Origin: Pseudorhodobacter sp. PARRP1
Lineage (GTDB): Bacteria; Pseudomonadota; Alphaproteobacteria; Rhodobacterales; Rhodobacteraceae
Direction: 5' to 3'
Assembly (NCBI GenBank): GCA_002256245.1
Contig: NKIU01000005.1
Location: 62,001-126,000, forward strand
DNA: 64,000 bases
Part shown: piece by piece, positions 4,698 to 34,923 of the stretch
Layout: each line of letters starts with the position of its first letter
How positions within the stretch are numbered: the first letter of the stretch is position 1
Translations under genes and position numbers: made by a program
The notes under the pieces: generated by a model
Told to the model about the DNA's origin: nothing
Database searches by the model: none
The model's input: the letters and a program-made list of their open reading frames with translations, nothing else

Positions 4698-4789
4698 GCT
4701 GCACCTCCGGATATGCGGAATTTGTCATACGCGTTCCCTTCCTGTCTGTTGACTGCCTCCGTTCAGCGGCGGCTTTCGGTTTGTTATTT

Positions 4790-4837
4790 GAACCGATGGT
4801 TCGATTTTATTTGACAGCACCCGCGACATTCTGTCAA
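4790..4837. promoter_or_regulatory. Candidate operators in the permease/IclR divergent promoter
   Basis: Two perfect inverted repeats lie between the divergent starts: GAACC-GAT-GGTTC at 4790-4802, and TTGACAG-N13-CTGTCAA at 4811-4817/4831-4837. Either could be the binding site of the adjacent IclR regulator. The left arm of the second also resembles a -35 box for rightward transcription. Confidence 0.5.
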
Positions 4838-4886
4838 CTGAAATGAAGGGGCTGGCTTTTGGGCGGCACGGGGCATCAGGCGAATT

Positions 4887-5672
4887 ATGGGAACGATCTC
4901 CAAAGCACTGGAATTGCTGAACTACTTCACCAAGGCCCGCCCGTTGATCGGGCTGTCGGACTTGGCGCGGCTGGCCGAGCTGAACAAGGCGACCTGCTTT
5001 CGCCTGCTGACCGAACTGGCTGACAACGGTTTTGTCGAGCAGATCGGCACCAGTCGCGAATATCGGCTTGGACCCAGTGTGTTGCGGTTGGCGGCGTTGC
5101 GTGAGGCGCAGGTGCCGACGCGGGAGGCGGCGATGCCGGTGTTGCAGGTGCTGGCGCAGCAGACTGGTGAGACGGCGCATTTGTCATTGCTGATTGCCGA
5201 CATCCTGCGGCCTTTGGCCCATGCCTACAGTGCCGCCCATGCCACCAAAGTGATGCTGGAGGATACCGAGGCGTTACCGTTTCATGCGACATCCTCTGGT
5301 CTTGCGGTGCTGGCGTTTCAGCCCGAAGCCTTTCGCAACCGGATTCTGGCGCAGCCCTTGCCGCGATTGACCACCTCGACCGAGACGGTTCCGGCTGCCT
5401 TGCGCGCCTGCATCAATGAGGTGCGCGCTTTGGGCTATGCCGAAAGCCGGGGCGGCTACGAATCGGATGTGCATTCCATGGCGGTGCCGCTGTTTGACGC
5501 CTTGGGGCGTTGCAGCGGAGCGCTGGCCGTGGCCGCCTTGGGCAGCCGCATGGGTGAGGCGCAGCGGCGCAAGATCCGCCATGCCCTGCTGCAAGCCGGA
5601 ACCGAAATCACCACGCTTTGGGGCGGCACTTTGCCCGCCGATATCGCGACACTGTGGCGCTTGGCCGCCTGA
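4887..5672 (+). CDS. IclR-family transcriptional regulator
   Basis: A 261-residue regulator. Residues 1-60 form the winged helix (ISKALELLNYFT, then LSDLARLAELNKATCFRLL as the recognition region), and residues 75-250 the IclR effector-binding domain (AHLSLL, HATSSGLAVLA, ESRGGYESDVHSMAVPLFD). It is transcribed away from the permease and 14 bp ahead of the aminotransferase, so it is likely the local regulator of amine uptake and breakdown and may be autoregulated through the inverted repeats at 4790-4837. The first residues run straight into the helix, as is normal for short members of the family. Confidence 0.9.
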   Translation: MGTISKALELLNYFTKARPLIGLSDLARLAELNKATCFRLLTELADNGFVEQIGTSREYRLGPSVLRLAALREAQVPTREAAMPVLQVLAQQTGETAHLSLLIADILRPLAHAYSAAHATKVMLEDTEALPFHATSSGLAVLAFQPEAFRNRILAQPLPRLTTSTETVPAALRACINEVRALGYAESRGGYESDVHSMAVPLFDALGRCSGALAVAALGSRMGEAQRRKIRHALLQAGTEITTLWGGTLPADIATLWRLAA

Positions 5673-5686
5673 CGGAAGGAAAGACG

Positions 5687-7048
5687 ATGAAAGACGAAAA
5701 CTACCTGAAGGCCCACAACGCCCGCAGCATGTGGCATCCGATGACGGCCCCTTCCGACAGCCTGAAAAACCCGCCCGCGATCATCACCGGCGGCAAGGGC
5801 GTGCGGATTACCGATATTGACGGGCACGAAGTGGTCGATGGCGTGGGCGGTTTGTGGAACGTCAATCTGGGCTATTCCTGCCAGCCGGTGAAAGACGCGA
5901 TCACCGCGCAGATGGAGCGGTTGCCGTATTATTCGACCTTCCGGGGCACCTCGAATGATTGCGTGATCGAACTGGCCGAGGAGTTGCGCAAGTTTTTCGA
6001 ACCCGATGGGCTTGTCAGATCGTTCTTCACCTCGGGCGGGTCGGATTCGGTTGAGACCGCGCTGCGGCTGTCGCGGCAGTATCACAAGATCCGGGGTGAT
6101 CAGGGGCGGGTGAAATTCCTGAGCCTGAAAAAGGGCTATCACGGCACGCATATGGGCGGGGCTTCGGTGAACGGCAACGCCAATTTCCGCACCATGTATG
6201 AACCGCTGCTGCCCGGCTGCCATCACATTCCGGCCCCCTACACCTATCGCAACCCGTTCAACGAATCCGATCCGGCCAAGCTGGCGCAACTGTGCTTGCA
6301 GGCGCTGGAGGATGAGATTGCCTTCCAAGGTGCCAGCACCATCGCCGCGTTTATCATGGAGCCGATTTTGGGCGCGGGCGGGGTGATCTTGCCGCATGAA
6401 AGCTTCATGCCAGGGGTTGAGGCGATTTGCCGGAAGCACGGTATTTTGTTGATCGCGGATGAGGTGATCACGGCGTTCGGGCGCACCGGGGCTTGGACGG
6501 GTAGTCGGTTGTGGGGGGTCAAGCCGGATTTCGCCTGCACCGCGAAGGCGATCACCAACGGCTATTTCCCGTTTGGCGCTGCGATGATTTCCGAGCGTGT
6601 GGCCGAGGTGTTTGAGGGCGACGAGACCGGCAAGGCGGCCATCGGGCATGGCTATACCTATTCTGGCCATCCGGTTGGCGCGGCGGCTGCGCTGGCGTGT
6701 CTGGCGGAAACGCAAAAGCTGGATGTGAAGGTGAACGCTGCCGCGCGCGGGGCAGAGTTGCATCAGGGGCTGCTTGATTTGCAGGGCAAATATGAGGTGA
6801 TCGGCGATGTGCGCGGCGGGCATGGGTTGATGTGCGCGCTGGAACTGGTGGCGGACCGGGCCTCGAAAAAACCGGCTGACAAAGCCGTGCCGGGCAAGGT
6901 GCAGGCGGTGGCCTATCAGTCGGGCGCGATGGTGCGGGTGTCTGGCAACAACATCATCATGTCGCCACCCTTGGTGCTGACTTCGGCGGATGTGCAGGTG
7001 ATCTTGTCGAGCCTGGATGCCGGGTTTGCGGCTGTGGCGGGTATGTAA
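5687..7048 (+). CDS. Class III PLP aminotransferase (omega-amino acid/amine:pyruvate type)
   Basis: A 453-residue fold-type I aminotransferase. It shows the PLP phosphate-binding region FTSGGSDSVETALRLSRQY, GYHGTHMGGASVNG, the cofactor Asp in LLIADEVITAFGRTG, and the Schiff-base Lys in CTAKAITNGYFP. This subgroup moves the terminal amino group of omega-amino acids, polyamines or other amines to pyruvate. The ATG at 5687 has AGGAAAG just upstream; a longer open frame exists but overlaps the IclR gene. Position after the regulator and opposite the aldehyde dehydrogenase suggests amine to aldehyde to acid. The exact amine donor is unknown. Confidence 0.9.
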   Translation: MKDENYLKAHNARSMWHPMTAPSDSLKNPPAIITGGKGVRITDIDGHEVVDGVGGLWNVNLGYSCQPVKDAITAQMERLPYYSTFRGTSNDCVIELAEELRKFFEPDGLVRSFFTSGGSDSVETALRLSRQYHKIRGDQGRVKFLSLKKGYHGTHMGGASVNGNANFRTMYEPLLPGCHHIPAPYTYRNPFNESDPAKLAQLCLQALEDEIAFQGASTIAAFIMEPILGAGGVILPHESFMPGVEAICRKHGILLIADEVITAFGRTGAWTGSRLWGVKPDFACTAKAITNGYFPFGAAMISERVAEVFEGDETGKAAIGHGYTYSGHPVGAAAALACLAETQKLDVKVNAAARGAELHQGLLDLQGKYEVIGDVRGGHGLMCALELVADRASKKPADKAVPGKVQAVAYQSGAMVRVSGNNIIMSPPLVLTSADVQVILSSLDAGFAAVAGM

Positions 7049-14044: not shown

Positions 14045-14542
14045 TCAGGGGATATGCACCGCGCGTTTGTAGGCGCGTTGGCCATAGAGCAGGGCATCGT
14101 GGTTATCGGTCAGCGCCACGGCGCTGACTTCGCCGACCATGATGTAATGGGTTTCCCACAGCAGCGCGGTTTTCAGGCTGCATTCGAAACTGGCCGAGGC
14201 CTCGGTCAGCACCGGTTGGCCGCCCTGCCCCGGATGCCATTTCACCGCATCAAAGCGGTCGCCTTCCGGTTTCTGGCGGCCCGAGAACAGATCGGACGTG
14301 GCCTGTTGCGCGGCACTCAGCAGGTTGGCGCAGAAGGCGCGGTTGCGCAGGATCGCGGTGGCGGCAGGCGAGAGGTGATGCACGCAGACCAGAAGTGACG
14401 GGCCTGCGCCATCGGCGGAAACCGAGGTCATGGACGACACCGTGACGCCGAAGCGGCCAGCCTCGCCATCGGTGGTGATCACCGAGACGAAGGTGGAAGC
14501 GCGGCTCATGGCTTCGATGAAGTGATGGCGCAGGTCGGTCAT
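14045..14542 (-). CDS. Flavin reductase-like protein (short form)
   Basis: A 165-residue protein with the flavin-reductase split-barrel pattern: STFVSVITTDGEAGRFGVTVSSMTSVS in outline, with GVTVSSMTSVS as the flavin-binding core, then SLLVCVHHLSP and FCANLLSAAQ. Such proteins use NAD(P)H to supply reduced FMN or FAD to a partner monooxygenase. It ends the leftward catabolic cluster, 3 bp after the glutamine-synthetase-like gene. The natural partner in the window is the acyl-CoA-dehydrogenase-like flavoprotein at 17824-19131. A second, longer reductase lies at 20318. Confidence 0.85.
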   Translation of the reverse strand: MTDLRHHFIEAMSRASTFVSVITTDGEAGRFGVTVSSMTSVSADGAGPSLLVCVHHLSPAATAILRNRAFCANLLSAAQQATSDLFSGRQKPEGDRFDAVKWHPGQGGQPVLTEASASFECSLKTALLWETHYIMVGEVSAVALTDNHDALLYGQRAYKRAVHIP

Positions 14543-14545
14543 ATA

Positions 14546-15889
14546 TTACCCCAGATCAAAGAAGCGTTGCAGTTCGACATCGGGCACTTTCTTGCGGAAT
14601 TGGTCGTATTGGCTTTGTCGGGTGGCGGCAAAGGCCTCGACAAAGCGGGGGCCAAGCCAGTCTTTCGCAAAGGCGGAATTGCGCAGGCGGTCAATCGCCT
14701 CGGGCATGGAGCGCGCGAAATCGGGGCGGTCGCCTGAAAGGTTGTGGCCGTTGCCGATGACTTCGGGTTCAGGCTCGATCTGCTCGATGATGCCCGCGAC
14801 GCCTGCGGCGATGGTGGCGGCGGCGGTCAGGTAGGGGTTGGTATCGGCCCCGGGCAGGCGGTTTTCAACGCGCAGGCTGCCCGCATCGTGACCTACCACC
14901 CGGAAGCAGGTGGTGCGGTTTTCATAGCCCCACGTCAGGCCGGGGGGCGCGAAAGTGCCGGGGGCGAAGCGGCGGTAAGAGTTCACGGTGGGCTGGCAGA
15001 TCAGGGTCATGTCGCCGATGTAGCGCTGTAGGCCGCCGATGAAATGGCGGAAGGTTTGGGAAATGCCGTTTTTCTCGCCGTCTTGGTAGAAGATCGGTTT
15101 ACCTGCGGCGTCTTTCAGCGAGATATGGACGTGGATCGACTGGCTGTCGGCATCCTCTGTCCAGCGCGGCATGAAGGTGACGCAGCGTCCTTGCCGCATC
15201 GCCAGCGCGCGGATGAAGTTTTTCAAGAGCACCAACTGGTCCGCAGGCTCCAGCCCCTCGCCCGCGCCGATGCAGGCCTCCATAAAGCCGCCGCCGATTT
15301 CTTCGTGCATTTTGGCAAGGTCAATGCGCAGCGGGCCGCACATATCCGAGACCGCCTCATACCATTCCTGCTGCACGGTTTGATACAGGATCAGATCGTG
15401 GCTGGCGTGCATGGTGGCGGTTTTCAGGTTGCGATAGCCTTTGTCGCGGGCGGATTCGGGGGATTCGTCGAACAGGGTGTATTCCAGTTCCATCCCGTAT
15501 TTCGGGGTAAACCCGTGCGCGCCTGCGCGGTCGAGCACCGATTTCAAGATAGAGCGCGGGCAGAGGGCGGCGGTGTCGCCGGAATATTGGGTGAGCAAAA
15601 GCAGGTCATGGCCGGGGCGCGCCCACGGGATGCGGCGGGCGGAGGTGGGATCGACGATCAGCGGGTCGTCGTGGAAATCGGAGGTGCCATCCGTGACGCC
15701 GGGCATTTCCAGCATCTGATCGGTGGGGTCCAATGCGAGTTGCGCCGGGGCCATGCCCATGCCGGCTTTCAGGATGCCGTTCAGGCTGCGGCGGGACACC
15801 ATCTGGCCGCGCAAAAGGCCGTTGGTATCGACCAATGCGACGGTGGCAAAGCGGCTGGACTCGTCGTCAAGAAAGGCTTGCAGGCTCAT
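14546..15889 (-). CDS. Glutamine synthetase-like ligase (probable gamma-glutamyl-amine ligase)
   Basis: A 447-residue protein of the glutamine synthetase fold. The start MSLQAFLDDESSRF at 15889 is chosen because its ATG overlaps the upstream TetR stop. MELEYTLFD carries metal-binding glutamates, SQSIHVHISL corresponds to the metal-binding His region, RRFAPGTFAPPGLTWGYENR to the ATP/glutamate loop and RVENRLPGADTNPYL to the C-terminal signature. In catabolic operons such proteins (PuuA, IpuC, aniline-type ligases) join glutamate to an amine instead of ammonia. Context here suggests activation of an amine substrate; it is very unlikely to be the housekeeping GlnA. Confidence 0.85.
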   Translation of the reverse strand: MSLQAFLDDESSRFATVALVDTNGLLRGQMVSRRSLNGILKAGMGMAPAQLALDPTDQMLEMPGVTDGTSDFHDDPLIVDPTSARRIPWARPGHDLLLLTQYSGDTAALCPRSILKSVLDRAGAHGFTPKYGMELEYTLFDESPESARDKGYRNLKTATMHASHDLILYQTVQQEWYEAVSDMCGPLRIDLAKMHEEIGGGFMEACIGAGEGLEPADQLVLLKNFIRALAMRQGRCVTFMPRWTEDADSQSIHVHISLKDAAGKPIFYQDGEKNGISQTFRHFIGGLQRYIGDMTLICQPTVNSYRRFAPGTFAPPGLTWGYENRTTCFRVVGHDAGSLRVENRLPGADTNPYLTAAATIAAGVAGIIEQIEPEPEVIGNGHNLSGDRPDFARSMPEAIDRLRNSAFAKDWLGPRFVEAFAATRQSQYDQFRKKVPDVELQRFFDLG

Positions 15890-16545
15890 TTTGTCCCCGT
15901 GATGGTTTGAAGTTGGGCCAGATCTTTGGCCGGGTCGGTGGCATAGGCTTTCAGGAAAACCCGCAGACCGTTGTGGATGTAGCGGGCGAGTTCGGGTTTG
16001 GTCGGGATGCGGTCGGGCAGGTGCAGGGCCTGGTTGCGGGGGGCCGACAGGATCAGGCCCCAAAGGTCTTCGGCGGCGAGTTCGGCATCGTCGAAGGCCA
16101 GTTTTCCGGCATCACGCTGGCGGGTCAGGTAAGTGATCATGCCGGCCAGAACCCGGTCGGGGCCAGCGGCTTGGTAGGCGCGGCCGATCTCGGGGAAGCG
16201 TTGCGCCTCGCCGATGATCAGGCGGGCGAGCGAGAGGAATTCGGGGCGCATGACGGTATCGGCGTAGTGCCATGCAAAGCTGTGCAGTTCGGCCACCATG
16301 TCGGTGCCGGGGTGATCGAAGGCCAGCAGCATGGTGTTGCGTTCGGCCAGCATGATCTCGGTGAACAACTGCTCTTTGGTGCCAAAGTATTGATAAAGCG
16401 TGGGTTTGGACACAGCAGCTTTGGCTGCGATGGCATCCATCGAGGTGCCGGAATAGCCTTCGGCAGCAAAAACCGACAGGGCGGCATCAAGGATGCGGCG
16501 TTGTTTGGCGATGCGGTTGAGTTCGCGTTGCGGGATGGCTGTCAT
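15886..16545 (-). CDS. TetR-family regulator inside the catabolic operon
   Basis: A 219-residue regulator. The N-terminal part has the classic TetR helix-turn-helix, GYSGTSMDAIAAKAAVSKPT followed by LYQYFGTKEQLF. The C-terminal part resembles the AefR-like ligand domain (ADTVMRPEFLSLARLIIGEA). Both ends overlap neighbours by 4 bp (ATGA with the hydrolase and with the GS-like gene), so it is translated as part of the operon. An imperfect 19-bp palindrome at 20244-20262, upstream of the NicX-like gene, resembles TetR operators and could be its target. Confidence 0.88.
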   Translation of the reverse strand: MTAIPQRELNRIAKQRRILDAALSVFAAEGYSGTSMDAIAAKAAVSKPTLYQYFGTKEQLFTEIMLAERNTMLLAFDHPGTDMVAELHSFAWHYADTVMRPEFLSLARLIIGEAQRFPEIGRAYQAAGPDRVLAGMITYLTRQRDAGKLAFDDAELAAEDLWGLILSAPRNQALHLPDRIPTKPELARYIHNGLRVFLKAYATDPAKDLAQLQTITGTK

Positions 16546-17822
16546 ACGAGAATCCGGGTCAGGAATTGCAGCAGCGGGCGGTTGTAGGCCTGCGGTTGCG
16601 CGACGTTGCAGACATGGCCTGCGTCGGCGATCACCTCGAACCGGACATCGGGGCGCGGGGCGGCGTCGGTGATGCGGCCTGCGACGGCGCGGATTTCTGA
16701 CGGGGGCGCGAGGCGGTCGTGTTCGCCTGTCATCAGCAGGGTGGGCATGGTGAGGCGCGCGAAGTCGAATCGCTCCAACGGGTTGGTGAAGCAGCGCAGG
16801 GCGTCGCGGTAGGTGGCGGCGGGGATGGCGGACATTGAGGCCAAGAGGTCGGCCCGGATGGTGTCGGAGGCGTTGGGGCCTGCGATGACATTGACGACGG
16901 CGGGGGCGAAATCGGCGGGGGTTTGGCCTGCGTCGAGCGGGACTTCGCGGCTGACGCGGAAGGCCTCGCGTTCTTCTGGGCCTGCTTCGGACATGCCGGT
17001 GCAACCGCCGGAGAGGACCAATCCTGCGAGTTTGTCGGGGTGGCGCATCGCAAAGCTGGTGGCGATCCACGAGCCGTAGGACAGGCCGCAGAGGATCAGC
17101 TTTTCAGCGTTGAAAGCGGCCATGACGCGCAGGATGTCTTCGCAATAGTCGTCGATGGTGGATTGGCGGAAACCAAGGGTGCTGTCGCCGTAACCGCGCA
17201 AGTCTAGCGCTGCGGCTTGGGCGTAGTTGCCGACGGCTTGCAGTTGGGCCGCCCAGTTTGTGCGCGCGCCGCCGATGCCGTGCAGGAACAGCACCAGCGG
17301 GCCGGGTTTGGCGGGGGTGTGGGTGAGGGCCAGTTGCGGGGTGCCGGGCAGGATGCGGGTTTGCAGGGGGGCGTTGGGCAACAGCGGTTCGGGCGTGGTT
17401 GGGGCTGTGGTTGCGGAGGACAGCGCGTCGATGCCCGCCTCAAAAATCGGTTTGGTGCCGTTGGCGATCTCGGCAGCGCGGGCCGGGGGGGCCACGATTT
17501 CCGCGCTCCAGTTGATCACAGAACCTGCGGGTGAGGCGGAAATCGTTATGCGGGCGGTGTAGCGGTCGGCCCCCCGGATGCCCTCAAGGTGGGTATAGGC
17601 GAGGCTGCGGTCGCTGTCGGAGCGGTAGATCAGTTGCTCACGATAGACGGTGTCCTCGCCATGGGCGGTGAAGCGGCGGATTTCGGCACCGGTTTCGCTG
17701 CGCTCTGCGGTGATGGTGGCAAGGCCGGGGTGCCATGCGCCGCAGAAGTCGCGCGCCACGGCCCAGACGGCGTCGGGCGTGGCGGGGGTGCGGCCCATGA
17801 CGTGGACGGTTTCGCGGGCCAT
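16542..17822 (-). CDS. SRPBCC domain fused to alpha/beta hydrolase
   Basis: A 426-residue two-domain protein. Residues 1-145 resemble an SRPBCC (START-like) ligand-binding domain (ATPDAVWAVARDFCGAWHP, SDRSLAYTHLEG). Residues about 170-426 are an alpha/beta hydrolase: oxyanion region LFLHGIGGARTNW, nucleophile Ser in LCGLSYGSW, acid in TGEHDRLAPP and His in ADAGHVCNV. The NicD N-formylmaleamate deformylase of nicotinate breakdown is a plain alpha/beta hydrolase, and here the gene sits two places from a NicX-like dioxygenase, so a deformylase-like role is plausible. The N-terminal fusion is unusual. Frames run without a break, so it is not an assembly artefact. Confidence 0.85.
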   Translation of the reverse strand: MARETVHVMGRTPATPDAVWAVARDFCGAWHPGLATITAERSETGAEIRRFTAHGEDTVYREQLIYRSDSDRSLAYTHLEGIRGADRYTARITISASPAGSVINWSAEIVAPPARAAEIANGTKPIFEAGIDALSSATTAPTTPEPLLPNAPLQTRILPGTPQLALTHTPAKPGPLVLFLHGIGGARTNWAAQLQAVGNYAQAAALDLRGYGDSTLGFRQSTIDDYCEDILRVMAAFNAEKLILCGLSYGSWIATSFAMRHPDKLAGLVLSGGCTGMSEAGPEEREAFRVSREVPLDAGQTPADFAPAVVNVIAGPNASDTIRADLLASMSAIPAATYRDALRCFTNPLERFDFARLTMPTLLMTGEHDRLAPPSEIRAVAGRITDAAPRPDVRFEVIADAGHVCNVAQPQAYNRPLLQFLTRILV

Positions 17823-17823
17823 T

Positions 17824-19131
17824 TCAGCGCAGGCCTTTGAGCGAACCCGAGTCGCCGCGCCACAAAGACGAGCGCGCGCCGCCTTCGTCGCCGGGGGCTT
17901 TGTCCAGCTCATCCATGTCATAGAGGGTAAGGACCGAAAGATAATCTTCCATGATTTCAGATGTATAGGGCAGCATCAACGCGCCACAGCGGCTGTCGCG
18001 ATACATCCGCTCCAGCGGCATGGATTTCAGCATCGACTGCCCGCCACAGGTGCGGATCGCAAGGGCGGCAATTTCCTGCACGCCTTCCATGACGTTATAC
18101 TGTGCTGCATACATCCGCAGCACTTGCGCCTTGGAGGGCATCCCCTGCGCCTCCATAAACGCCTGCCACCACAGCGCGCGCATGTTGGCCAGACGCGCAT
18201 ACATGCGGCCTACGGCGATGCGCTTGGTGCCGAACATGCGCCGATCAGCGGCGGGCTGGCCTTCAACCTCGCCGCGCAGGTAGGCGACGGTGAAGTCATA
18301 AGCGCCTTGCGCGAGGCCCATGTAGGTGGGCGACAGGGTGGCCATCATATGCGGCCAATGCGGCAGGGTTTTGATGAACAACCCGCGCGGCATCATCAGA
18401 TCGTCTTCGCTGACGAACACGTCCTTCAGCACCAGATCGCGGGAGTTGGTGCCGCGCATCCCCAACGGGTCCCACGTGCCTTGCACGGTCAGGCCTTTGG
18501 CCTCTTTCGGGACGACGAAGATCATGGTGTCTTCGTGGCGAGGCTCGACGCCCTCGAAATGCTCGGTGCAGACGATCGAGTAATAGTCGCAATAGCCTGC
18601 GAGGGAGGCGAATTTCTTGAAGCCGTTGATCACCCAGCCGCCATCGACCTTGCGGCAGTTGGTTTGGGCGGGTTTGGACGTCCAGTTCTGCCCCGCTTCC
18701 GAGATCGGTTGCGAGTAGATGCCCTGCTCGGCCACGGCGCGTCGGAATTGGCGTGCGCGCAAGGGGGCGAAGGCGGCGCGATCCTCGTCGGTGAGGTTCG
18801 GCAGTTCATACATGAAGCGCGACCACATCATGGATGAGTTGTGCATGTTGAAGGTCAGCGCGGTGGCGCCGCAGTATTTGCCAATCTCGGCCCCGCACAT
18901 CGCGTATTCGCCCAAGGAAAACCCGTGGCCGCCGAATTCCTCGGGAACTGTCAGGGTCAGGAAGCCTTCGGCGGCAAGGTCTTTGTAGTTCTGCACCGGG
19001 AACGTGGCTTCCATGTCGATGCCCTTGGCGCGGGCGGCGAAGCTGGGGCCAAGTTCATTCAGGCGGTTCAGAACCGCCTGCACTTCGGGGCGGATGCGGC
19101 TGAGGTCGTAGTAGTCGGCAATCGTGCTCAT
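17824..19131 (-). CDS. Acyl-CoA dehydrogenase-like flavoprotein (possible monooxygenase)
   Basis: A 435-residue member of the acyl-CoA dehydrogenase fold: LTVPEEFGGHGFSLGEYAMC in the N-terminal domain, WVINGFKKFASLAGY in the beta domain, TWDPLGMRGTNSRDLVLKDVFV, and LERMYRDSRCGALML near the end. At the place of the usual IYEGTSE catalytic motif it reads MLPYTSE, so the common general-base Glu appears missing. Relatives lacking it (DszC, HpaH-like, IacA types) are flavin-dependent monooxygenases served by a reductase. Two flavin reductases in the same cluster favour that reading. It lies 1 bp from the hydrolase gene. Confidence 0.82.
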   Translation of the reverse strand: MSTIADYYDLSRIRPEVQAVLNRLNELGPSFAARAKGIDMEATFPVQNYKDLAAEGFLTLTVPEEFGGHGFSLGEYAMCGAEIGKYCGATALTFNMHNSSMMWSRFMYELPNLTDEDRAAFAPLRARQFRRAVAEQGIYSQPISEAGQNWTSKPAQTNCRKVDGGWVINGFKKFASLAGYCDYYSIVCTEHFEGVEPRHEDTMIFVVPKEAKGLTVQGTWDPLGMRGTNSRDLVLKDVFVSEDDLMMPRGLFIKTLPHWPHMMATLSPTYMGLAQGAYDFTVAYLRGEVEGQPAADRRMFGTKRIAVGRMYARLANMRALWWQAFMEAQGMPSKAQVLRMYAAQYNVMEGVQEIAALAIRTCGGQSMLKSMPLERMYRDSRCGALMLPYTSEIMEDYLSVLTLYDMDELDKAPGDEGGARSSLWRGDSGSLKGLR

Positions 19132-19149
19132 GGGTTTTCTCCGTTGCGC

Positions 19150-20202
19150 TTACAGCGCGAGTTCGCCTTGAAGGACGCCCGCTTTGACGACGATGCGTCC
19201 GTCAAGGGCGATGGTGCAGTTGCGCATCGGCAGATCAAAATGGCCGAGCGTGTAGCGGCCCGCGTATTGGTTGGCCCCGGTGGACCACAGGAACGATCCG
19301 GCAAGGGCGCGGAATTCGACGGCCTGCATGTCGCGCTTGTCATACATCGCGGCGCTGATCCAATGGGCGTGCGGGTTCATCCCCCAGCCGACATGGCTGA
19401 GGCCGTAGGCGTTCGGATCATCCCAGGCGGCCATGTATTCGCGGAAATGCAGGGCGTCGATGCCGTCGCCTTTGATGGCGGTGACGAAATCATTCTCGAT
19501 GGTGCAGTCGATGCGGCTGGTCAGGTAGGTTTTGAACGTCAGGTTCATATCGCCCACGTCCATCACGATCCGCCCGTTCACCGCGTTCTTGCCGGGGAAG
19601 GCAAGGCACAGGCCGCCCGGCCAATGCGCCACATCACCGGGCTTGGTGCCGAAGCCCGCGGTGCCGCCACAGGGCGCGTCGCGCAGGTTGATGGTCAGAT
19701 CGGTGCCCGCGGCGGAAGTCACGCGCATCTCTGACGCCTCGCGCAGCATTTGCGTGCCGAGGGCAACCTTGGGGCCGTGTTCGGCTTTCGGCTCGGTGCG
19801 TTCAAGGATTTCGGGGTGTTCGTTGGTGATCACCAGCAGGCGGGTGCGGCCAGCGGACTCAATCTCGGGCCATTCCGGGGCGTGGATGATGCCTTCGACG
19901 GTGCAATCGACGATGACTTCGACCCGCTTCAAGGCTTCGATCACGGCGCGGTTTTGCTGGATCGCCCAGCTTGTGCCGGTGGATTTGACCGGAACCGGGG
20001 CGTTCATCGGCGGGGTCGGCATGGTGATGATGCAAAACTCCGCGCCCAGATCGTAGGCGGCGAGTTCGCACAGGTGGATCAGCACCGGGCGGGATTGGGT
20101 TTCGCAAAGGATGGCGATGGGGGTGCCGCGACCGATGCCGTTCAGCGCCAACACCCGGCGGAAGGCGGCGAGCCATTTGCCCTCGATCCGTTCTTGCATC
20201 AT
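19150..20202 (-). CDS. NicX-like 2,5-dihydroxypyridine 5,6-dioxygenase family protein
   Basis: A 350-residue protein, the length of Pseudomonas NicX. The C-terminal half matches from memory of that family: DVGDMNLTFKTYL, YGLSHVGWGMNPHAHW and LGHFDLPMRNC. The iron ligands known for NicX (a His in the SHxGWG segment, then His and Asp in HxDxPxRNC) are all present. NicX opens the pyridine ring of 2,5-dihydroxypyridine to N-formylmaleamate. The fold is shared with M29-like aminopeptidases, so the substrate may differ. The ATG at 20202 follows AAAGGAG. It starts a leftward transcription unit. Confidence 0.83.
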   Translation of the reverse strand: MMQERIEGKWLAAFRRVLALNGIGRGTPIAILCETQSRPVLIHLCELAAYDLGAEFCIITMPTPPMNAPVPVKSTGTSWAIQQNRAVIEALKRVEVIVDCTVEGIIHAPEWPEIESAGRTRLLVITNEHPEILERTEPKAEHGPKVALGTQMLREASEMRVTSAAGTDLTINLRDAPCGGTAGFGTKPGDVAHWPGGLCLAFPGKNAVNGRIVMDVGDMNLTFKTYLTSRIDCTIENDFVTAIKGDGIDALHFREYMAAWDDPNAYGLSHVGWGMNPHAHWISAAMYDKRDMQAVEFRALAGSFLWSTGANQYAGRYTLGHFDLPMRNCTIALDGRIVVKAGVLQGELAL

Positions 20203-20243
20203 CGCGGTTTCTCCTTTGACCCATGGATTTGAGTCGAAACATT

Positions 20244-20262
20244 TTACTGATCGGTTTAGTAA
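20244..20262. promoter_or_regulatory. Imperfect palindrome, candidate TetR operator
   Basis: TTACT-N9-AGTAA, with seven of nine base pairs symmetric across 19 bp, about 45 bp upstream of the NicX-like start. The AT-rich spacing and length suit a TetR-family site. The TetR gene lies downstream in the same transcript. Confidence 0.4.
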
Positions 20263-20286
20263 TTATGAGAGTCATGTTTGTGTCAA

Positions 20287-20306
20287 CAAGATTTTCGAAA
20301 ATCTTG
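20287..20306. promoter_or_regulatory. 20-bp perfect palindrome, candidate GntR operator
   Basis: CAAGATTTTCGAAAATCTTG is a perfect 20-bp palindrome between the flavin reductase stop and the NicX-like start. Its core ATTTTCGAAAAT recurs exactly at 24074-24085, next to the GntR gene. Two identical cores in two promoters of one cluster suggest a shared regulator. Confidence 0.65.
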
Positions 20307-20317
20307 CCGAGCGCCGA

Positions 20318-20953
20318 TTATCTGGGGGTTTGCGTCGGCCAGTCCGCCCATTTCGGGCGATCCAACTCGAAGGTGTCGTGGCTGCGCACGTAGGTGGAGC
20401 CATAGCTGCGCGCCACGAGGCCCAAGGCGGGGGTGTCGATATGGGCGCGTTCGGCGTTCAGGATGAACCGGTCATCGATATGCACGGCCAGAACCCGGCC
20501 GATGACGATGGTCTGATGCGGGCCGGTGACGACCGAGGACAGCATGGCACATTCAAACGCCACCGGGCTGGCGGCGATGCGCGGCGGGCGGATATGCGCG
20601 GAGGGCATGGTTTCCAGGCCTGCAAGGTTCAGTTCGTTGACCCCCGTCGGGGCATCGACCGAGGTGACGTTCATCTGCTGCACCAAAGCTTCGGGCACCA
20701 GATTGACCACGAATTCCCCGGTGGCCAGGATGTTGGCCGCCGTATCCTTGAAGCCGCGCACGGGGTCGGCCATCAGGCCCAGAACGAGGGTGGGCGGGGC
20801 AGAGCCCATGACGTTGAAAAAGCTGTAGGGCGCGGCGTTCAGCGCGCCCTTTGCGCTTTGCGTGACCACCCAGGCAATCGGGCGCGGCATCACGGTGGCG
20901 GCGAGCAGTTTGTAGGCAATCGGCTCGGCCACCTTATCCAGATCCCAGCGCAT
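20318..20953 (-). CDS. Flavin reductase-like protein (long form)
   Basis: A 211-residue protein of the flavoredoxin/flavin reductase family: YKLLAATVMPRPIAWVVTQS, NAAPYSFFNVMGSAPPTLVLGL and GEFVVNLV, the usual sequence around the FMN-binding barrel, then a C-terminal LGLVARSYGSTYVRS. It could supply reduced flavin to the monooxygenase-like protein at 17824, or act on its own. Its ATG shares one base with the nitrilase stop (TGATG), so the two are translated together. It ends the cupin-FAH-nitrilase transcript. Confidence 0.85.
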   Translation of the reverse strand: MRWDLDKVAEPIAYKLLAATVMPRPIAWVVTQSAKGALNAAPYSFFNVMGSAPPTLVLGLMADPVRGFKDTAANILATGEFVVNLVPEALVQQMNVTSVDAPTGVNELNLAGLETMPSAHIRPPRIAASPVAFECAMLSSVVTGPHQTIVIGRVLAVHIDDRFILNAERAHIDTPALGLVARSYGSTYVRSHDTFELDRPKWADWPTQTPR

Positions 20954-21876
20954 CAGATTTCCTTCACGGCGCGTTTGGCGCGGGTATCGACGGTCAGTTC
21001 AAACACATCGGGGCGGGCGTAGTGGCCGGTTACGTCGAAATCGTATTTGGCGCGCATCACTTCCGCCGGGTCGATTTCGGCGTAAAGAATGGTCTCGCCG
21101 CTGAAATCGGGGCCTGCCAGCACCTTGCCCAACGGGCCGATGATCGCCGATCCGCCGCGCATCATCACGGTGTCGGGGTCATCACCCAAGGTACTTTCAT
21201 GGTCGGGGCCATAGGCGGCGCGGGTGATGTATTGGCAGGCGGTCAGCACGAAGGTGCGGCCCTCCATCGCGATGTGCTGCATGGTGGGCAGCCAGGTGTC
21301 GCGATCATCGGCGGTGGGGGCGCAGTAGAGGCTGACGCCTTGATGATACATGTGCATCCGCAGCGCGGGCATGTAGTTTTCCCAGCAGATCACCGCACCT
21401 ATGGTGCCAAGATCGGTCTGGAAGGTGGGCAGGGTAGAGCCATCGCCAAAGCCCCAGATCAGCCGCTCGGCGGCGGTGGGCATCAGTTTGCGGTGCTTGC
21501 CGACAAGGCCCTTTGCGCCGTCGAAGTAAAGGGCTGTGCAGTAGAGCGTGGCCCCGTCGCGTTCAATCGCACCGATGACGGCGAAGGTGTTGGTTTCCGC
21601 CGTGGCCTCGGCCAGCAGCGCCACTTCGGGGCCATCCAGATCAATGGCGGCGGCGTGGTAGCGGGCGAAGGCAGCGCGGCCTTCGGGTTTGCGCATCCCG
21701 ATGGGGGCACCAAAGCTGGCACCTTTCGGATAGCCGCCGAGCAGGGCTTCGGGGAACACCACCAGTTTCGCACCCTTTGCGGCGGCGTCGCGCAGGGTCG
21801 CGGCGGCTTTTTCAGCCGTCGCCAGCGGGTCGTTGGGGAGAGAGGCGATTTGGGCGACGGCGACGGTGAAAGTCAT
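20953..21876 (-). CDS. Nitrilase
   Basis: A 307-residue carbon-nitrogen hydrolase with the complete catalytic triad: Glu in LVVFPEALLGGYP, Lys in GKHRKLMPTAAER and Cys in GAVICWENYMP. The CWEN context is that of true nitrilases (nitrile to acid plus ammonia) rather than amidases. The C-terminal IGPLGKVLAGPDFSGETILYAEID in outline is also typical. It is in one transcript with an FAH hydrolase and a bicupin dioxygenase, so it may feed a carboxylate into that route, though action on a ring-opened amide-like intermediate cannot be excluded. The start MTFTVAVAQIA at 21876 is standard. Confidence 0.9.
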   Translation of the reverse strand: MTFTVAVAQIASLPNDPLATAEKAAATLRDAAAKGAKLVVFPEALLGGYPKGASFGAPIGMRKPEGRAAFARYHAAAIDLDGPEVALLAEATAETNTFAVIGAIERDGATLYCTALYFDGAKGLVGKHRKLMPTAAERLIWGFGDGSTLPTFQTDLGTIGAVICWENYMPALRMHMYHQGVSLYCAPTADDRDTWLPTMQHIAMEGRTFVLTACQYITRAAYGPDHESTLGDDPDTVMMRGGSAIIGPLGKVLAGPDFSGETILYAEIDPAEVMRAKYDFDVTGHYARPDVFELTVDTRAKRAVKEI

Positions 21877-21901
21877 GGGACGTTCCTTTTGTGGCAGCCC
21901 G

Positions 21902-21919
21902 CCGGGGGCCAGCCCCCGG
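21902..21919. repeat. GC-rich hairpin followed by GGGATATTTG element
   Basis: CCGGGGGC-CA-GCCCCCGG, followed at 21921 by CCCCCGGGATATTTGAACAG. A similar sequence, CCCCCGTGGGATATTTGG, occurs at 55093-55110. Such elements look like a dispersed intergenic repeat. Here it lies between the FAH and nitrilase genes. Confidence 0.55.
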
Positions 21920-21956
21920 ACCCCCGGGATATTTGAACAGAGAGGATGACCAAAGA

Positions 21957-22877
21957 TCAGTCTGGTGTGGCGTTGACAACAGGATGGCGGATGCTGCCGA
22001 TGCCTTCCACTGTGGCCACAACCACGTCGCCGGGCCAGAGCCATTCTTGCGGCGTGCGCCCCGCGCCGACGCCTTCCGGCGTGCCCGAGGCGATGATGTC
22101 GCCGGGTTCCAGCGTGATGCCCGAGGAGATGTCGGCGATCAGCGTGGCCACATTGAACAGCATGTGGCGGGTGTTGGAGCGTTGTTTTTCCACGCCGTTG
22201 ACGGTCAGCCAGAGGTCGAGGGTTTGCGGATCGGGGATATCGTCGGCGGTGATGATGCAGGGGCCGAAGGGGGCGTAGGTGTCTTGGCCTTTGGAGAAAA
22301 TCCACTGGCCAGCGCGGCGGTTGTCGCGGGCGGAAATGTCGATCATCACCGAATAGCCGAAGACATGGGTGAGGGCGGCGTCGCGGCTGACGCGGCGGGC
22401 GGTGGTGCCGATGATCACGGCAAGCTCTACCTCCCAATCAAGTTGCTGGGTGATTTTGGCGTTGTGCTCGATGGCAGAGCCGGGGCCGATCACGGTGGTG
22501 GGGGGTTTGGAGAAGATCACCGGCTGTTTCGGCAGGTCTTTCGAGGTATCGAGAGACGCGGCACTTTCGGCGACATGTTCGACATAGTTCAGACCGATGC
22601 CAAAGATGTTCTTGCGCGGGCGCGGGATCGGGGCGAGCAGGGTGACATTGGCCAGATCGGTGGCGACACCGGTGGCATAATCGCCCTCGGCCCCCTCAAG
22701 GCAGGCCTTCAGCGTGGCCAGACCGGGGCGACCTGCGTCAATGAGGGCCAGCATGGAATCGGGCAGATCTTCGCCCATCATCACGCCCAAGCGTGCCACA
22801 TCGACGACGAGATCGCCGTCCATCACGCCCAGCTTTGCGGCGGCCTCGACCGAGGCGCGGTAGGTAACCAGTTTCAT
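21957..22877 (-). CDS. Fumarylacetoacetate hydrolase (FAH) family protein
   Basis: A 306-residue protein with the FAH fold in its C-terminal two thirds: NIFGIGLNYVEH, QPVIFSKPPTTVIGPG, the metal-binding glutamates in LDWEVELAVIIG, and GDIIASGTPEGVG. The family hydrolyses C-C bonds in diketo acids, for example fumarylpyruvate or maleylpyruvate after gentisate ring opening, or decarboxylates oxaloacetate-like acids. It lies 9 bp from a gentisate-dioxygenase-like gene, which makes hydrolysis of its ring-opened product the natural reading. No maleylpyruvate isomerase is seen next to it. Confidence 0.88.
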   Translation of the reverse strand: MKLVTYRASVEAAAKLGVMDGDLVVDVARLGVMMGEDLPDSMLALIDAGRPGLATLKACLEGAEGDYATGVATDLANVTLLAPIPRPRKNIFGIGLNYVEHVAESAASLDTSKDLPKQPVIFSKPPTTVIGPGSAIEHNAKITQQLDWEVELAVIIGTTARRVSRDAALTHVFGYSVMIDISARDNRRAGQWIFSKGQDTYAPFGPCIITADDIPDPQTLDLWLTVNGVEKQRSNTRHMLFNVATLIADISSGITLEPGDIIASGTPEGVGAGRTPQEWLWPGDVVVATVEGIGSIRHPVVNATPD

Positions 22878-22886
22878 ATCTTGTCC

Positions 22887-24008
22887 TTACAGAAGCGGCT
22901 GGTGGCCGTTGTTGTCGCCAAAGGCTTCTTCGCGGTAGAGGCCCAAGGCCCGCATGACGGGCAGATCAGACAGGCAGAACAGGCAGGCGTCCTCGCCCGG
23001 TTGATCGTTGACGTGTTCATGCCAAGCCCATGACGGCACGCAGAAAATATCGCGTTCCTGCCAGTCATACCGTTTGCCGTTGATGATGGAATGGCCGCGC
23101 CCCTTGGCGACGTGGTAAAGGTAGCTGCCGGTGTGGCGATGGGCTTTGGTGTGTTCCCCGGCCCGCAGCAGTTGCATCGAGGCCCCCAGCGTCTGCATCA
23201 CCGGGCCGTTGGTGACGGGGTTCACATATTCCATCAGCACCCCGTCGAAGGGCGAGCCATCGCTGGCACCGGCGTATTTCACCAGCGCCTCATAGGTCGG
23301 GGCCCATTCGTATTTGAACATCGGGCTGTAGCCTTTGTTCCACGCACCACCGCCGGGGGTAAGGCCGGCGTTGCCCCAGGTTTTGGTCATATCATCCACC
23401 GGATAGCCGACGGCTTGGCCAAGATCGGGGTGGACCTCGTAGAAGTTCGCCTCCATCGCGTTGACGAAGGGGATGTCGAGACCGTCTTGCCAGATGCAGG
23501 GGGTGCCTTCGGCGGCGACGCCGTGTTCGTGCCATGTGCCGTTTGGCGTGAGGACGAAATCATTCGAGCCGAGTGTCATCTTGTGGCCATCAACCACGGT
23601 ATAAGCGCCGCTGCCTTCCATGATGAAGCGGATCGCGCTGGCGGAATGGCGATGGGCCGAGGCAACCTCGCCGGGGTTCATCACTTGCAGACCGGCGTAG
23701 ATCCAACCGACCGCAGCGGCCACATCGGTGCGGCCGGGGTTGTTGAGGTAGATCACCCGCCGCCCCGCCTTTTCGGGCGTGACCAGTTGCACCGAGCGCA
23801 GCACATGTTCGCGCAGATCACGGTAGCGCCAGACCACCGGCACAGATTGGCTTTTGGGCGCCCAAGGTTCGATCTTGTTGGCAACCGTCCACAAGGCCCC
23901 GGCGCTGAATTTATCAAGCTGGTCGTAGTAGGCCAGCAGTTCGGGCGTGTCTTCGACATTGGCGCGGCCTGCAACGTCTTCACGGTGGTTTTCGCGTTGA
24001 TTGCTCAT
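22887..24008 (-). CDS. Gentisate 1,2-dioxygenase-like bicupin
   Basis: A 373-residue two-cupin protein. Cupin 1 has AHRHSASAIRFIMEGSGAY and TPNGTWHEHG, the His-x-His and later His of the Fe(II) site of gentisate and 1-hydroxy-2-naphthoate dioxygenases. Cupin 2 has KAHRHTGSYLYHVAKGRGHS and PSWAWHEHV. The family cleaves the ring of aromatic rings with adjacent hydroxyl and carboxyl groups using O2. The start MSNQRENHRED at 24008 is chosen; upstream the frame is open but unrelated to the family. It is the promoter-proximal gene of cupin-FAH-nitrilase-flavin reductase and divergent from a GntR regulator. Confidence 0.87.
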   Translation of the reverse strand: MSNQRENHREDVAGRANVEDTPELLAYYDQLDKFSAGALWTVANKIEPWAPKSQSVPVVWRYRDLREHVLRSVQLVTPEKAGRRVIYLNNPGRTDVAAAVGWIYAGLQVMNPGEVASAHRHSASAIRFIMEGSGAYTVVDGHKMTLGSNDFVLTPNGTWHEHGVAAEGTPCIWQDGLDIPFVNAMEANFYEVHPDLGQAVGYPVDDMTKTWGNAGLTPGGGAWNKGYSPMFKYEWAPTYEALVKYAGASDGSPFDGVLMEYVNPVTNGPVMQTLGASMQLLRAGEHTKAHRHTGSYLYHVAKGRGHSIINGKRYDWQERDIFCVPSWAWHEHVNDQPGEDACLFCLSDLPVMRALGLYREEAFGDNNGHQPLL

Positions 24009-24072
24009 GTCCCTGCCCCTGATGCCGAATTTCTGAAGGCAAGATGCCAGAATAATTTCCGCAAGCAAGTCA

Positions 24073-24086
24073 TATTTTCGAAAATA
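24073..24086. promoter_or_regulatory. 14-bp perfect palindrome, candidate GntR operator
   Basis: TATTTTCGAAAATA, between the divergent bicupin and GntR genes. It shares the 12-bp core with the palindrome at 20287-20306. Its position would let one protein control both directions. Confidence 0.65.
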
Positions 24087-24146
24087 ATGAAATTGCCATC
24101 CGATCTGGCCTGCGCCATACTGGCGGCAAGCAGAAAGAGGCCCGCG

Positions 24147-24824
24147 ATGACTTTGGCAGAAACCGCCTATGATGCACTGCGGCACGATATCGTGCGGGGC
24201 GTGCTGGCTCCGGGAAAGCCGCTGCGGATGGCGCAGTTGTCAGAGCGCTATGGCATGGGATTCTCGCCGCTGCGCGAGGCGCTGAACCGCTTGCAGGCCG
24301 AGCGGTTGGTGACATCCATCGCCCTGCGCGGGTTTTCGGTGGCGCCGCTGTCGATGGCGGAAATGTGGGATACCATCAACACCCGCGTGCTGATCGAGCA
24401 ACGCGCGTTGCGGCTGGCGATGGCGCAGGGCGGGGATGATTGGGAAACCGGCATCGTCAGCGCGCTGCACAGCCTGACGCTGCAATCGACACGGGCGGCA
24501 GAGGGCGGGGCGGATGAGCAGAAACTGCTGGAAGACCGCCACCACGGCTTTCATCTGGCGCTGATTGCGGGCTGCGGATCAAGCTGGCTGCTGGAGTTTT
24601 TTCAGCGGCTTTATGCAGAGGCCGAGCGTTATCGCTATCCGATGTTGCAACAGCGCAATGTCGAACATCACCGCGATATTCAGGCCGAACATGCGGCGCT
24701 GGCGAAGGCCACTTTGGCGCGCGATGCCGATATGGCCTGCGATCTGTTGGCCGAACATTACCTGCGCACCGCCCGGTTTATCGAGGCGCAGATGACGGCA
24801 GCGCCACAGGTGCAAAGCGCGTAA
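24147..24824 (+). CDS. GntR-family (FCD-type) regulator of the catabolic cluster
   Basis: A 225-residue protein. Residues 1-70 form the GntR winged helix (AYDALRHDIVRGVLAPGKPL, then YGMGFSPLREALNRLQAE), and residues 85-215 an all-helical FCD effector domain with metal-binding-type residues (RHHGFHLALIAG, NVEHHRDIQAEHAAL). FCD regulators respond to small carboxylates. The ATG at 24147 is 6 bases after AGAGG; an ATG at 24087 is possible but would overlap the palindrome. It is divergent from the bicupin gene, so it likely controls the cluster and itself. Confidence 0.88.
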   Translation: MTLAETAYDALRHDIVRGVLAPGKPLRMAQLSERYGMGFSPLREALNRLQAERLVTSIALRGFSVAPLSMAEMWDTINTRVLIEQRALRLAMAQGGDDWETGIVSALHSLTLQSTRAAEGGADEQKLLEDRHHGFHLALIAGCGSSWLLEFFQRLYAEAERYRYPMLQQRNVEHHRDIQAEHAALAKATLARDADMACDLLAEHYLRTARFIEAQMTAAPQVQSA

Positions 24825-31650: not shown

Positions 31651-32565
31651 TCAAAGCGCCCCGTGCTGCGCGCGCAAAGTCTCGGCCGAGAATCGCACCA
31701 GTTCCGCCACCTGACCCAACTGCTTGGCGAGTGGCGAGGTTTTGCGCCAGACCATACCCACCATCCGCTGCGGTTTCGGATCACCAAACCGCGCCACCGA
31801 GACCGCGGCAGAGCGGGTTTCCACCGCCATCGCCATCTCCGGGATCAGCGTGACGCCAATTCCTGCGCTGACCATCTGCACCAAAGTGGACAGCGAGCTT
31901 CCGTCCAGAAGTTCGCGCGGTGGGGCGGCGGACATGTTGCAGAACGACAGCGCCTGATCGCGGAAACAGTGGCCTTCCTCCAGCAGAAGCAGGCGCATTT
32001 CACGCAGGCGTTCGCGGCTGGGTACGGGTTTGCCCGCATCCTCTGCCGGGCGGATCAGCACGAAATCTTCGGAAAACAGCGGCATTTCCGTCAGCGAGGG
32101 TTCCGAGATGGGCAGCGCCACGATGGCGGTATCGAGGCGTCCCTCGGCCAGTTCGGTCAGCAGTTTCGGCGTGACGGTTTCGCGCAGTTGCAGGTCCAGA
32201 TCGGCGTTCTGCCGCATCAGGTTGCCGATGATCGTCGGCAACAGATAGGGCGCGATGGTGGGAATCACCCCGATCCGCAACCGACCCGCCAGTTGGCTTT
32301 GCGCCGCCCGCGCGATGTCAGCCAACTCATCCACCGAGCGCAGAATGTCGCGCACCCGGACCGCAAAAGCCTCGCCAAAGCTGGTCAGCCGCACCTGCCG
32401 CGCGCCACGCTCAAACAGATCGGTGCCAAGGGCTGCTTCCAGTTCCTTGATCTGCATCGACAAAGCCGGCTGCGAGATGGCGCAGACCTCTGCCGCGCGG
32501 CCAAAATGACCGTGGCGGGCCAGCGCCTCAAAATAGCGGAACTGTTTCAGGGTGAAGTTTATCAT
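31651..32565 (-). CDS. oxyR: OxyR, hydrogen-peroxide-sensing LysR regulator
   Basis: A 304-residue LysR-type regulator. The N-terminal helix-turn-helix (FEALARHGHFGRAAEVCAIS, then QPALSMQIKELE) is followed by the regulatory domain with EEGHCFRDQALSFC, the two redox cysteines nine residues apart that form the OxyR disulfide. It is divergent from katG, its usual target, and the intergenic space carries a strong inverted repeat. Length and cysteine spacing match OxyR well. It should activate katG on peroxide stress. Confidence 0.93.
   Translation of the reverse strand: MINFTLKQFRYFEALARHGHFGRAAEVCAISQPALSMQIKELEAALGTDLFERGARQVRLTSFGEAFAVRVRDILRSVDELADIARAAQSQLAGRLRIGVIPTIAPYLLPTIIGNLMRQNADLDLQLRETVTPKLLTELAEGRLDTAIVALPISEPSLTEMPLFSEDFVLIRPAEDAGKPVPSRERLREMRLLLLEEGHCFRDQALSFCNMSAAPPRELLDGSSLSTLVQMVSAGIGVTLIPEMAMAVETRSAAVSVARFGDPKPQRMVGMVWRKTSPLAKQLGQVAELVRFSAETLRAQHGAL

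Positions 32566-32637: not shown

Positions 32638-34923
<2,286 letters not shown>

Follow-up and report, generated by a model that had tools for sequence, protein, structure and literature searches.

Two gene modules around a NicX-like dioxygenase of Pseudorhodobacter and their links to anthranilate genes

We have studied a gene cluster of Pseudorhodobacter sp. PARRP1, found in a stretch of 64,000 nt (the window: contig NKIU01000005.1, positions 62,001–126,000) of a genome with 4.35 Mb. It has eleven genes in positions 14,045–24,824 of the window; one of them codes for a relative of NicX, the dioxygenase which opens 2,5-dihydroxypyridine, and another one for a bicupin dioxygenase. The gene set is not one unit: it is formed by two modules of differing conservation. 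Both are linked to anthranilate genes, a new and well-supported point which rests on gene context and of which we are rather confident. It has a little less than an even chance that the two catabolic modules meet at anthranilate, so that the core would make anthranilate and the bicupin branch would open a product of it. The system is a new variant within kinds of catabolism already known and does not make up a kind of its own. A previous sequence-only reading had taken it for a candidate undescribed pathway: the gene set is indeed not named as a system in the open-access literature which we searched.

All eleven genes of that reading are present, and comparisons with Pfam, NCBIfam and the PDB bear out their family assignments. 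Ten of them are on the minus strand; the GntR gene is divergent. The core is formed by the NicX-like non-heme iron dioxygenase (19,150–20,202), an acyl-CoA-dehydrogenase-like (ACAD-like) flavoprotein (17,824–19,131), an SRPBCC plus alpha/beta hydrolase fusion (16,542–17,822) and a TetR/AcrR regulator (15,886–16,545; PF00440, PF14246). Usually it also has a glutamine-synthetase-like (GS-like) glutamyl-amide ligase (14,546–15,889), a RutF/HpaC-like flavin reductase, FR1 (14,045–14,542; PF01613, 123 bits with the RutF model, cut-off 255), and a permease. The accessory module contains the bicupin of the gentisate/5-aminosalicylate group (22,887–24,008), an FAH-family hydrolase (21,957–22,877; PF01557, 231 bits), a NIT4-like hydrolase of the nitrilase superfamily (20,953–21,876), a second flavin-reductase-like protein, FR2 (20,318–20,953; PF01613), and on the plus strand, divergent from the bicupin, a GntR/FCD regulator (24,147–24,824; PF00392, PF07729). 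The entire gene set is found in a contig of Cypionkella psychrotolerans, with 90–97% identity.

The two modules become apparent when different loci are compared. We have used the best 80 of 573 confirmed stretches which encode NicX-like relatives; their genes were predicted with a codon-usage script and neighbours were counted by tblastn. Due to contig ends, 10 of the 80 loci were left out of the downstream counts (at least 6 kb required, n = 70) and 12 out of the upstream counts (at least 5 kb, n = 68). Downstream of NicX we find the ACAD-like gene and the hydrolase in 70/70 loci, TetR in 69, the GS-like ligase in 59 and FR1 in 55. Loci of Rhodobacterales and Hyphomicrobiales repeat the core in one order of genes. 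Since it recurs there, and in a short form in other Alphaproteobacteria, its clustering goes beyond chance. Many loci have an amino-acid permease after FR1 (44/80 at 50% identity or more; the permease cluster c5 has 45 members, including a window paralogue). The window permease in 3,264–4,571 is only about 58% identical to those of the NicX operons and is therefore excluded from the system.

The bicupin is optional, as it is present in 30 of the 68 loci with enough upstream sequence. Its partners follow it closely. FAH is found in 30/30 loci with bicupin and in 0/38 of those without; the same comparison gives 17/30 versus 0/38 for the nitrilase, 26/30 versus 3/38 for FR2 and 27/30 versus 4/38 for GntR. 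With respect to the core, the bicupin module has the opposite orientation in L124 and L129. It also stands apart from NicX: the bicupin was detected in 18 of 248 genomes in a survey of the family, and 15 stretches were fetched around bicupins outside NicX loci. Ten of them have close bicupins (77–90% identity), accompanied by FAH in nine cases, FR2 in eight and the nitrilase in five. The other five have distant bicupins (60–65%); four of these have a nitrilase of another subfamily, 32–36% identical to that of the window, and three a maleate-isomerase-like gene. The nitrilase thus goes with the bicupin, inside and outside NicX loci, and not with NicX. The sequence-only reading had considered the eleven genes as one unit, which does not hold: the whole set does not travel together, each module does. 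Its suggestion of two linked parts or substrates agrees with the two modules found.

Counts over the 80 loci favour close relatives, so that we added a survey of 385 sampled genomes of the class (E ≤ 1e-70). Matches of the NicX-like protein were found in 26 of them: the window's own and 25 with 45–58% identity. We fetched 20 of these 25 loci, all from other families of the class. Near NicX, an alpha/beta hydrolase and the ACAD-like gene are each present in 17 of them; 15 have a CoA ligase and five a flavin reductase, while the GS-like ligase and the bicupin were found in 0/20. A short operon with NicX, hydrolase, ACAD and CoA ligase recurs in this way in other Alphaproteobacteria and seems to be the older form.

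Some loci have particular neighbours. In plasmid pAA02 of Aminobacter aminovorans (L184, 21–29 kb) the complete operon lies between bhc (beta-hydroxyaspartate) genes, tyramine oxidase subunit B and a gene pair for an aminomethyltransferase and a FAD oxidoreductase. In marine loci (L051 10,142–13,436, L130, L133 and L135) a set made of a FluG-like glutamine synthetase, a P450, a class I amidotransferase and a TctC-type binding protein recurs beside the NicX core: it has the appearance of a gamma-glutamylation pathway of its own.

The NicX-like protein has no match in Pfam (E ≤ 0.001) nor in NCBIfam. Its homology with 7cn3, a 2,5-dihydroxypyridine 5,6-dioxygenase, is full-length (7.8e-58), and its predicted structure (mean pLDDT 86.5, from 19 sequences) reaches a TM-score of 0.87 with NicX. 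We have taken the NicX residue positions from the structure paper (PMC7910607). The iron ligands H265, S302, H318 and D320 correspond to H270, S307, H321 and D323: they are kept in 39/39 members of the clade, 19 from the tree and 20 from the class loci. Three of them had already been recognised by the sequence-only reading; the equivalent of Ser302 is the fourth. Glu177, which binds the 2-oxygen of the substrate in NicX (PMC7910607), is replaced in 39/39 by Thr, Val, Ile or Gly. Glu308 is also lost in 39/39, with Tyr or Phe in the 19 tree members, and all 39 have a Glu-Gly insertion before the Leu104-His105 lid; Glu103 in the active site of the NicX-like protein is invariant. The equivalents of His105 and His189 are kept in 19/19 tree members; in the class loci that of His189 is His in 19/20 and Tyr in L231.

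A tree calculated with IQ-TREE from 29 rows (19 of the window clade and 10 of an outgroup which includes Pseudomonas putida NicX) separates the window clade from the outgroup with support 100/99, with a warning from the program about long branches. In the outgroup 8/10 rows have both Glu177 and Glu308, L037 has only Glu308 and L038 has neither. Judged by its sequence, the window protein belongs to a clade of its own, distinct from true NicX. In the family survey 30/248 genomes have a NicX-like match at E ≤ 1e-30: 15 with at least 70% identity, including the window's, seven with 41–51% and eight with 32–36%. Genes of this clade carry the annotation 'peptidase M29'.

The names NicC, NicD, NicE and NicF, maleate isomerase, arylformamidase, IorA/IorB, kynurenine formamidase, TrpX and HbzF-type hydrolases are used here in what we take to be their usual meaning. 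An ordinary nicotinate or 2,5-dihydroxypyridine pathway with relocated genes could account for the full-length homology and the high TM-score, but it is very improbable given the separate clade and the general loss of Glu177. True NicX of Azospirillum has a monooxygenase, an Asp/Glu racemase, a hydrolase and an isochorismatase as neighbours, and five NicX loci of the family (L032–L036) adjoin a NicE-like gene of the racemase type, 63–68% identical to that of L158; the window cluster has no NicE-like or NicF-like gene, both of which are neighbours of NicX in Azospirillum. From the NicD/NicE/NicF neighbourhood it has only an alpha/beta hydrolase, dissimilar to NicD at blastp E ≤ 1e-3. We have rejected the plain nicotinate pathway on the loss of Glu177 and the lack of adjacent NicE and NicF; the sequence-only reading, which argued against a plain nicotinate or gentisate pathway, was right in this respect. 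The system shares with the nic pathway of P. putida (PMC7910607) the fold, the four iron ligands, the equivalents of His105 and His189 and a hydrolase after ring opening. It differs by the loss of Glu177 and Glu308, the Glu-Gly insertion, the absence of NicE, NicF and NicC and its neighbours of the anthranilate type.

These neighbours are as follows. An aminobenzoate-CoA ligase is found in 10 of the 80 NicX loci: directly behind the core permease in L074, L080, L088, L097, L100 and L123, behind the permease with one opposite-strand gene in between in L113 and L114, on the other strand in L101 and upstream in L126. In Shinella and others, kynureninase (TIGR01814, 373 bits, cut-off 246) and tryptophan 2,3-dioxygenase are neighbours of the same ligase family; the substrate of the ligase is therefore anthranilate. 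In Shinella the NicX operon runs on into the ligase, tryptophan 2,3-dioxygenase and kynureninase. In L113, L114 and L115 the kynureninase/ligase cluster is found downstream of the NicX operon, and in the genome of L118 it is on another contig.

The window genome (G000) has a complete 2-aminobenzoyl-CoA pathway in a cluster (C7) away from the NicX operon, with a monooxygenase recognised by NF006101 (1256.7 bits), a ligase 85% identical to that of L074, enoyl-CoA hydratase, dehydrogenase, thioesterase and a Rid protein. Tryptophan 2,3-dioxygenase is also found in this genome. We take NF006101 to correspond to ACMR, and 2-amino-5-hydroxybenzoyl-CoA is presumably an intermediate of that monooxygenase. 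Genome G104 has a single ligase copy (E ≤ 1e-150), which is inside the NicX operon; its monooxygenase cluster, at a distance of 318 kb, has no copy. G121, G234 and G000 have one copy each, within the monooxygenase cluster. This cluster adjoins the NicX operon in L126 and L128 and, among the 20 class loci, in L226, L228 and L233; in L228 it immediately follows the CoA ligase, with no change of strand. In L232 a TRAP transporter beside the operon is followed by a gene of the tryptophan-2,3-dioxygenase family.

The bicupin module has similar links: in L150 its direct neighbours are the ligase and the ligase cluster, in L158 it adjoins tryptophan 2,3-dioxygenase, and in L151, L153 and L156 there are cyclase-family genes (PF04199) nearby. 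In the family survey NF006101 is over its cut-off in 82/248 genomes. By Fisher tests, which ignore kinship and to that extent count against our interpretation, it is associated with NicX of at least 70% identity (11/15 versus 71/233 genomes, p 0.0012) and with the bicupin (17/18 versus 65/230, p 2.6e-8), while NicX and bicupin are associated with each other (7/18 versus 8/230, p 1.4e-5). A different set of two genes, similar to 2-oxoacid:ferredoxin oxidoreductases (POR, DUF6537 and TPP domains), is near 2-aminobenzoyl-CoA genes or a bicupin in L143 (15,632–18,987), L144 (16,788–19,000) and L151 (4,566–8,802); it may form aryl-CoA from arylglyoxylate.

How the core might produce anthranilate can be considered from its other proteins. 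The ACAD-like protein has lost the Glu of the acyl-CoA-dehydrogenase motif YEG(T/A)S (YEGAS): it has LPYTS instead. Its closest PDB sequences are 5gj7 and 5z8t, the latter with the title flavin-containing monooxygenase. In the list of similar folds indole-bound TdsC has rank 48 and true acyl-CoA dehydrogenases rank equally high. The fold search alone cannot distinguish these activities; acyl-CoA dehydrogenase activity was rejected on the loss of the catalytic Glu. From its sequence we propose a two-component flavin monooxygenase, which likely receives reduced flavin from FR1, in view of the flavin reductases counted above in the NicX and class loci. In several loci of the Mesorhizobium type FR1 has 390–400 aa (L091 15,713–16,885, L097 15,694–16,866 and L184 19,701–20,879; 12 loci in cluster c13). 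The Aminobacter copy is annotated as a LysR substrate-binding protein; this hints that the reductase is fused here to a ligand-binding domain.

The alpha/beta hydrolase (PF00561, motifs GLSYG, GEHD and AGH) had its family correctly assigned by the sequence-only reading, which missed that it is fused to an N-terminal domain of the SRPBCC type (PF10604, residues 13–135). In distant loci the hydrolase stands alone, with no such fusion. We propose that it is a deformylase or a hydrolase of the ring-fission product.

The chances are about even that the core substrate is a compound of the indole type. The ACAD-like protein and FR1 would hydroxylate its N-containing ring, and the NicX-like dioxygenase would open this ring at the bond which joins the hydroxylated carbon to the carbon beside N. 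With 3-hydroxyindole, cleavage of C3–C2 would give N-formylanthranilate. The bond would be of the same type as in 2,5-dihydroxypyridine, where NicX cuts between the 5-hydroxyl carbon and the CH next to N to form N-formylmaleamate (PMC7910607). The hydrolase would then release formate and anthranilate, which could enter the 2-aminobenzoyl-CoA pathway present elsewhere in the genome.

Such a route can be compared with the iif/ind indole pathway (PMC6221969). A two-component flavin oxygenase with its flavin reductase, as proposed here, and anthranilate as product are common to both; IifC/IndA are described there as indole oxygenases which work with a flavin reductase. A 2-aminobenzoyl-CoA route from the indole pathway is reported for Cupriavidus in the same review. 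The difference is that iif has a dehydrogenase and a cofactor-independent oxygenase (PMC6221969), whereas we propose a NicX-like dioxygenase and a hydrolase. There is no short-chain dehydrogenase among the operon genes of the window, compared by family only and without the IifA sequence. We assume that IifC and IndA are members of the ACAD fold family.

Anthranilate would also be the product if the core degrades indole-3-acetate (IAA): the NicX-like enzyme would open C2–C3 to 2-formamidobenzoylacetate, the hydrolase would deformylate it and the product would be split to anthranilate. A route through 2-formamidobenzoylacetate was postulated for Bradyrhizobium (Egebo 1991, cited in PMC8383072). 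Transporters of the carboxylate and amino-acid types occur close to the loci, next to the Aminobacter operon there are genes for tyramine oxidase (subunit B) and aldehyde dehydrogenase (a possible entry of amines), and the general CoA ligase of 15/20 class loci could act on 2-aminobenzoylacetate. On the other hand, no marker specific for IAA is constant, the role of the ACAD-like protein becomes less clear and known iad loci use the Rieske enzyme IadDE (PMC9613470), so that we judge this route unlikely. The iad auxin locus has the same endpoint, anthranilate, but iad and iac loci have a Rieske dioxygenase (IadDE) and MarR regulators (PMC9613470, PMC11630574, PMC12633357); the term glutamine synthetase does not appear in the consulted passages of these three papers. 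The iad and iac pathways themselves were rejected: there is no Rieske IacCD or IadDE among the eleven genes.

Less probable still is that the core acts on a quinoline such as hydroxylated kynurenate and opens its pyridine ring, to give an N-acyl compound from which the hydrolase would form anthranilate or a close relative. NicX itself opens a pyridine ring, and kynurenine genes are linked in Shinella, as is the tryptophan 2,3-dioxygenase family gene in L232. Additional steps would be required before anthranilate, and neither an aminotransferase nor any quinoline-specific gene is constant.

In the second module the bicupin has metal-binding histidines (HRH and HEH) in both halves. It scores 306.5 bits with the gentisate model TIGR02272 (cut-off 442) and 283 bits with the 5-aminosalicylate model NF049978 (cut-off 650); it is therefore below both. 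The module resembles the gentisate 1,2-dioxygenase pathway and the 5-aminosalicylate dioxygenase MabB in having a bicupin plus FAH; it differs from them by these scores, by the added nitrilase and flavin-reductase-like protein and by its ties with anthranilate genes. The nitrilase, called a true nitrilase in the sequence-only reading, has the Glu-Lys-Cys triad motifs (E41, K127 and C164). Its closest solved relative is plant NIT4 and, from the sequence, an amide substrate is as likely as a nitrile. It is thus weak evidence for the nitrile starting substrate suggested earlier, as it follows the bicupin; for the same reason an entry step from acetonitrile was rejected as its main role.

We propose that the bicupin opens 5-hydroxyanthranilate to maleamylpyruvate (or else gentisate), that FAH would split maleamylpyruvate into maleamate and pyruvate and that the nitrilase-superfamily protein would remove the amide N of maleamate as a maleamate amidase. 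The 5-hydroxyanthranilate route needs an amidase, and this is the best reason for the presence of the nitrilase-superfamily gene; gentisate would need none. A conventional gentisate branch is a real but lesser possibility: a CoA hydroxylase and a thioesterase would turn salicylate or anthranilate into gentisate, and maleylpyruvate would be hydrolysed directly by FAH. FAH-type enzymes with this activity are known, and the missing maleylpyruvate isomerase, which the sequence-only reading held against a gentisate route, does not exclude it. The closest solved relative of the bicupin, 3bu7, was deposited as a gentisate 1,2-dioxygenase, and in L155, L157 and L158 a maleate-isomerase-like gene follows FAH. 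Routes from anthranilate to gentisate have been described without genes (PMC6221969, PMC4539516); according to the review, the gentisate branch had as yet no known gene in 2018 (PMC6221969). A gentisate route leaves the nitrilase unexplained, the bicupin remains under the gentisate cut-off and its linkage is to tryptophan and anthranilate genes.

Returning to the whole scheme, the two ring-opening enzymes probably act in sequence, or else on alternative substrates of one anthranilate network. That the NicX-family branch was recruited in many Alphaproteobacteria to open the N-ring of bicyclic compounds of the indole type, giving N-formylanthranilate or a close analogue, with a linked bicupin that cleaves 5-hydroxyanthranilate to maleamylpyruvate and a maleamate amidase of the nitrilase superfamily, is a tentative combination, rather doubtful in all its parts together. 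The full series of substrates and reactions given above is put forward with the same reserve.

Several observations weigh against it. In the core, the first Foldseek match of the ACAD-like model is 1ws9, an acyl-CoA dehydrogenase, FR1 is absent in 15/70 loci, and the hydrolase has no blastp match with NicD of Azospirillum at E ≤ 1e-3. The scheme offers no role for the GS-like ligase, which is also absent in 11/70 loci. Permeases and TRAP, ABC and TctC-like transporters are found near core loci; they suggest a charged substrate (indole carboxylate, IAA or an amine) and not indole itself. Homoprotocatechuate-type genes adjoin L062, L100, L130 and L133 (HpaD with 400 bits in L130, cut-off 321), so that a phenylethylamine interpretation is allowed. 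In the bicupin branch, the nitrilase is absent in 13/30 bicupin loci and there is no anthranilate 5-hydroxylase in the module. For the maleate-isomerase-like protein no match was obtained in the window's genome, an empty answer of little weight. As for the anthranilate link, genome G178 has its two ligase copies on contigs other than that of the NicX operon. NF006101 bears the name salicylyl-CoA 5-hydroxylase, which also favours a salicylate/gentisate interpretation.

The GS-like ligase (PF00120, 280 bits) has a DTNGLLRG loop and 186 bits with the gamma-glutamylputrescine synthetase model (cut-off 650). It has the GS fold and a non-GS N-terminal loop, like the ligases AtdA1 (aniline) and PuuA (putrescine). 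It differs from their systems in being far under the PuuA cut-off, in an operon without aniline dioxygenase or amidotransferase. Comparisons with NCBIfam and PDB pointed to no substrate for this ligase nor for the flavin-reductase-like proteins. We may guess that it gamma-glutamylates an amine imported by the permease, and the amine genes of Aminobacter lend some help to this guess.

If the scheme is true, it would provide genes for the routes from indole or IAA through anthranilate to gentisate-type compounds, which were reported in 1968–1991 without genes. It would also be a third kind of bacterial opening of the indole ring, by an iron dioxygenase of the NicX type, and would matter for the way in which rhizobia, roseobacters and freshwater bacteria turn over auxin and tryptophan. 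The clade is widespread and its genes could pass for nicotinate enzymes.

Other regions of the window are of minor interest. At 7 kb from the NicX operon, in positions 1,713–7,048, there is an amine/amino-acid cluster with an aldehyde dehydrogenase (PuuC-like, below cut-off), an amino-acid permease, an IclR-type regulator and a class III aminotransferase (PRK07481, over cut-off). A KatG catalase-peroxidase (32,692–34,923, over cut-off) is divergent from a LysR-type gene (31,651–32,565). In positions 55,204–59,654 three genes resemble, as judged by eye, those of histidine utilisation: hutU, hutH and hutI.

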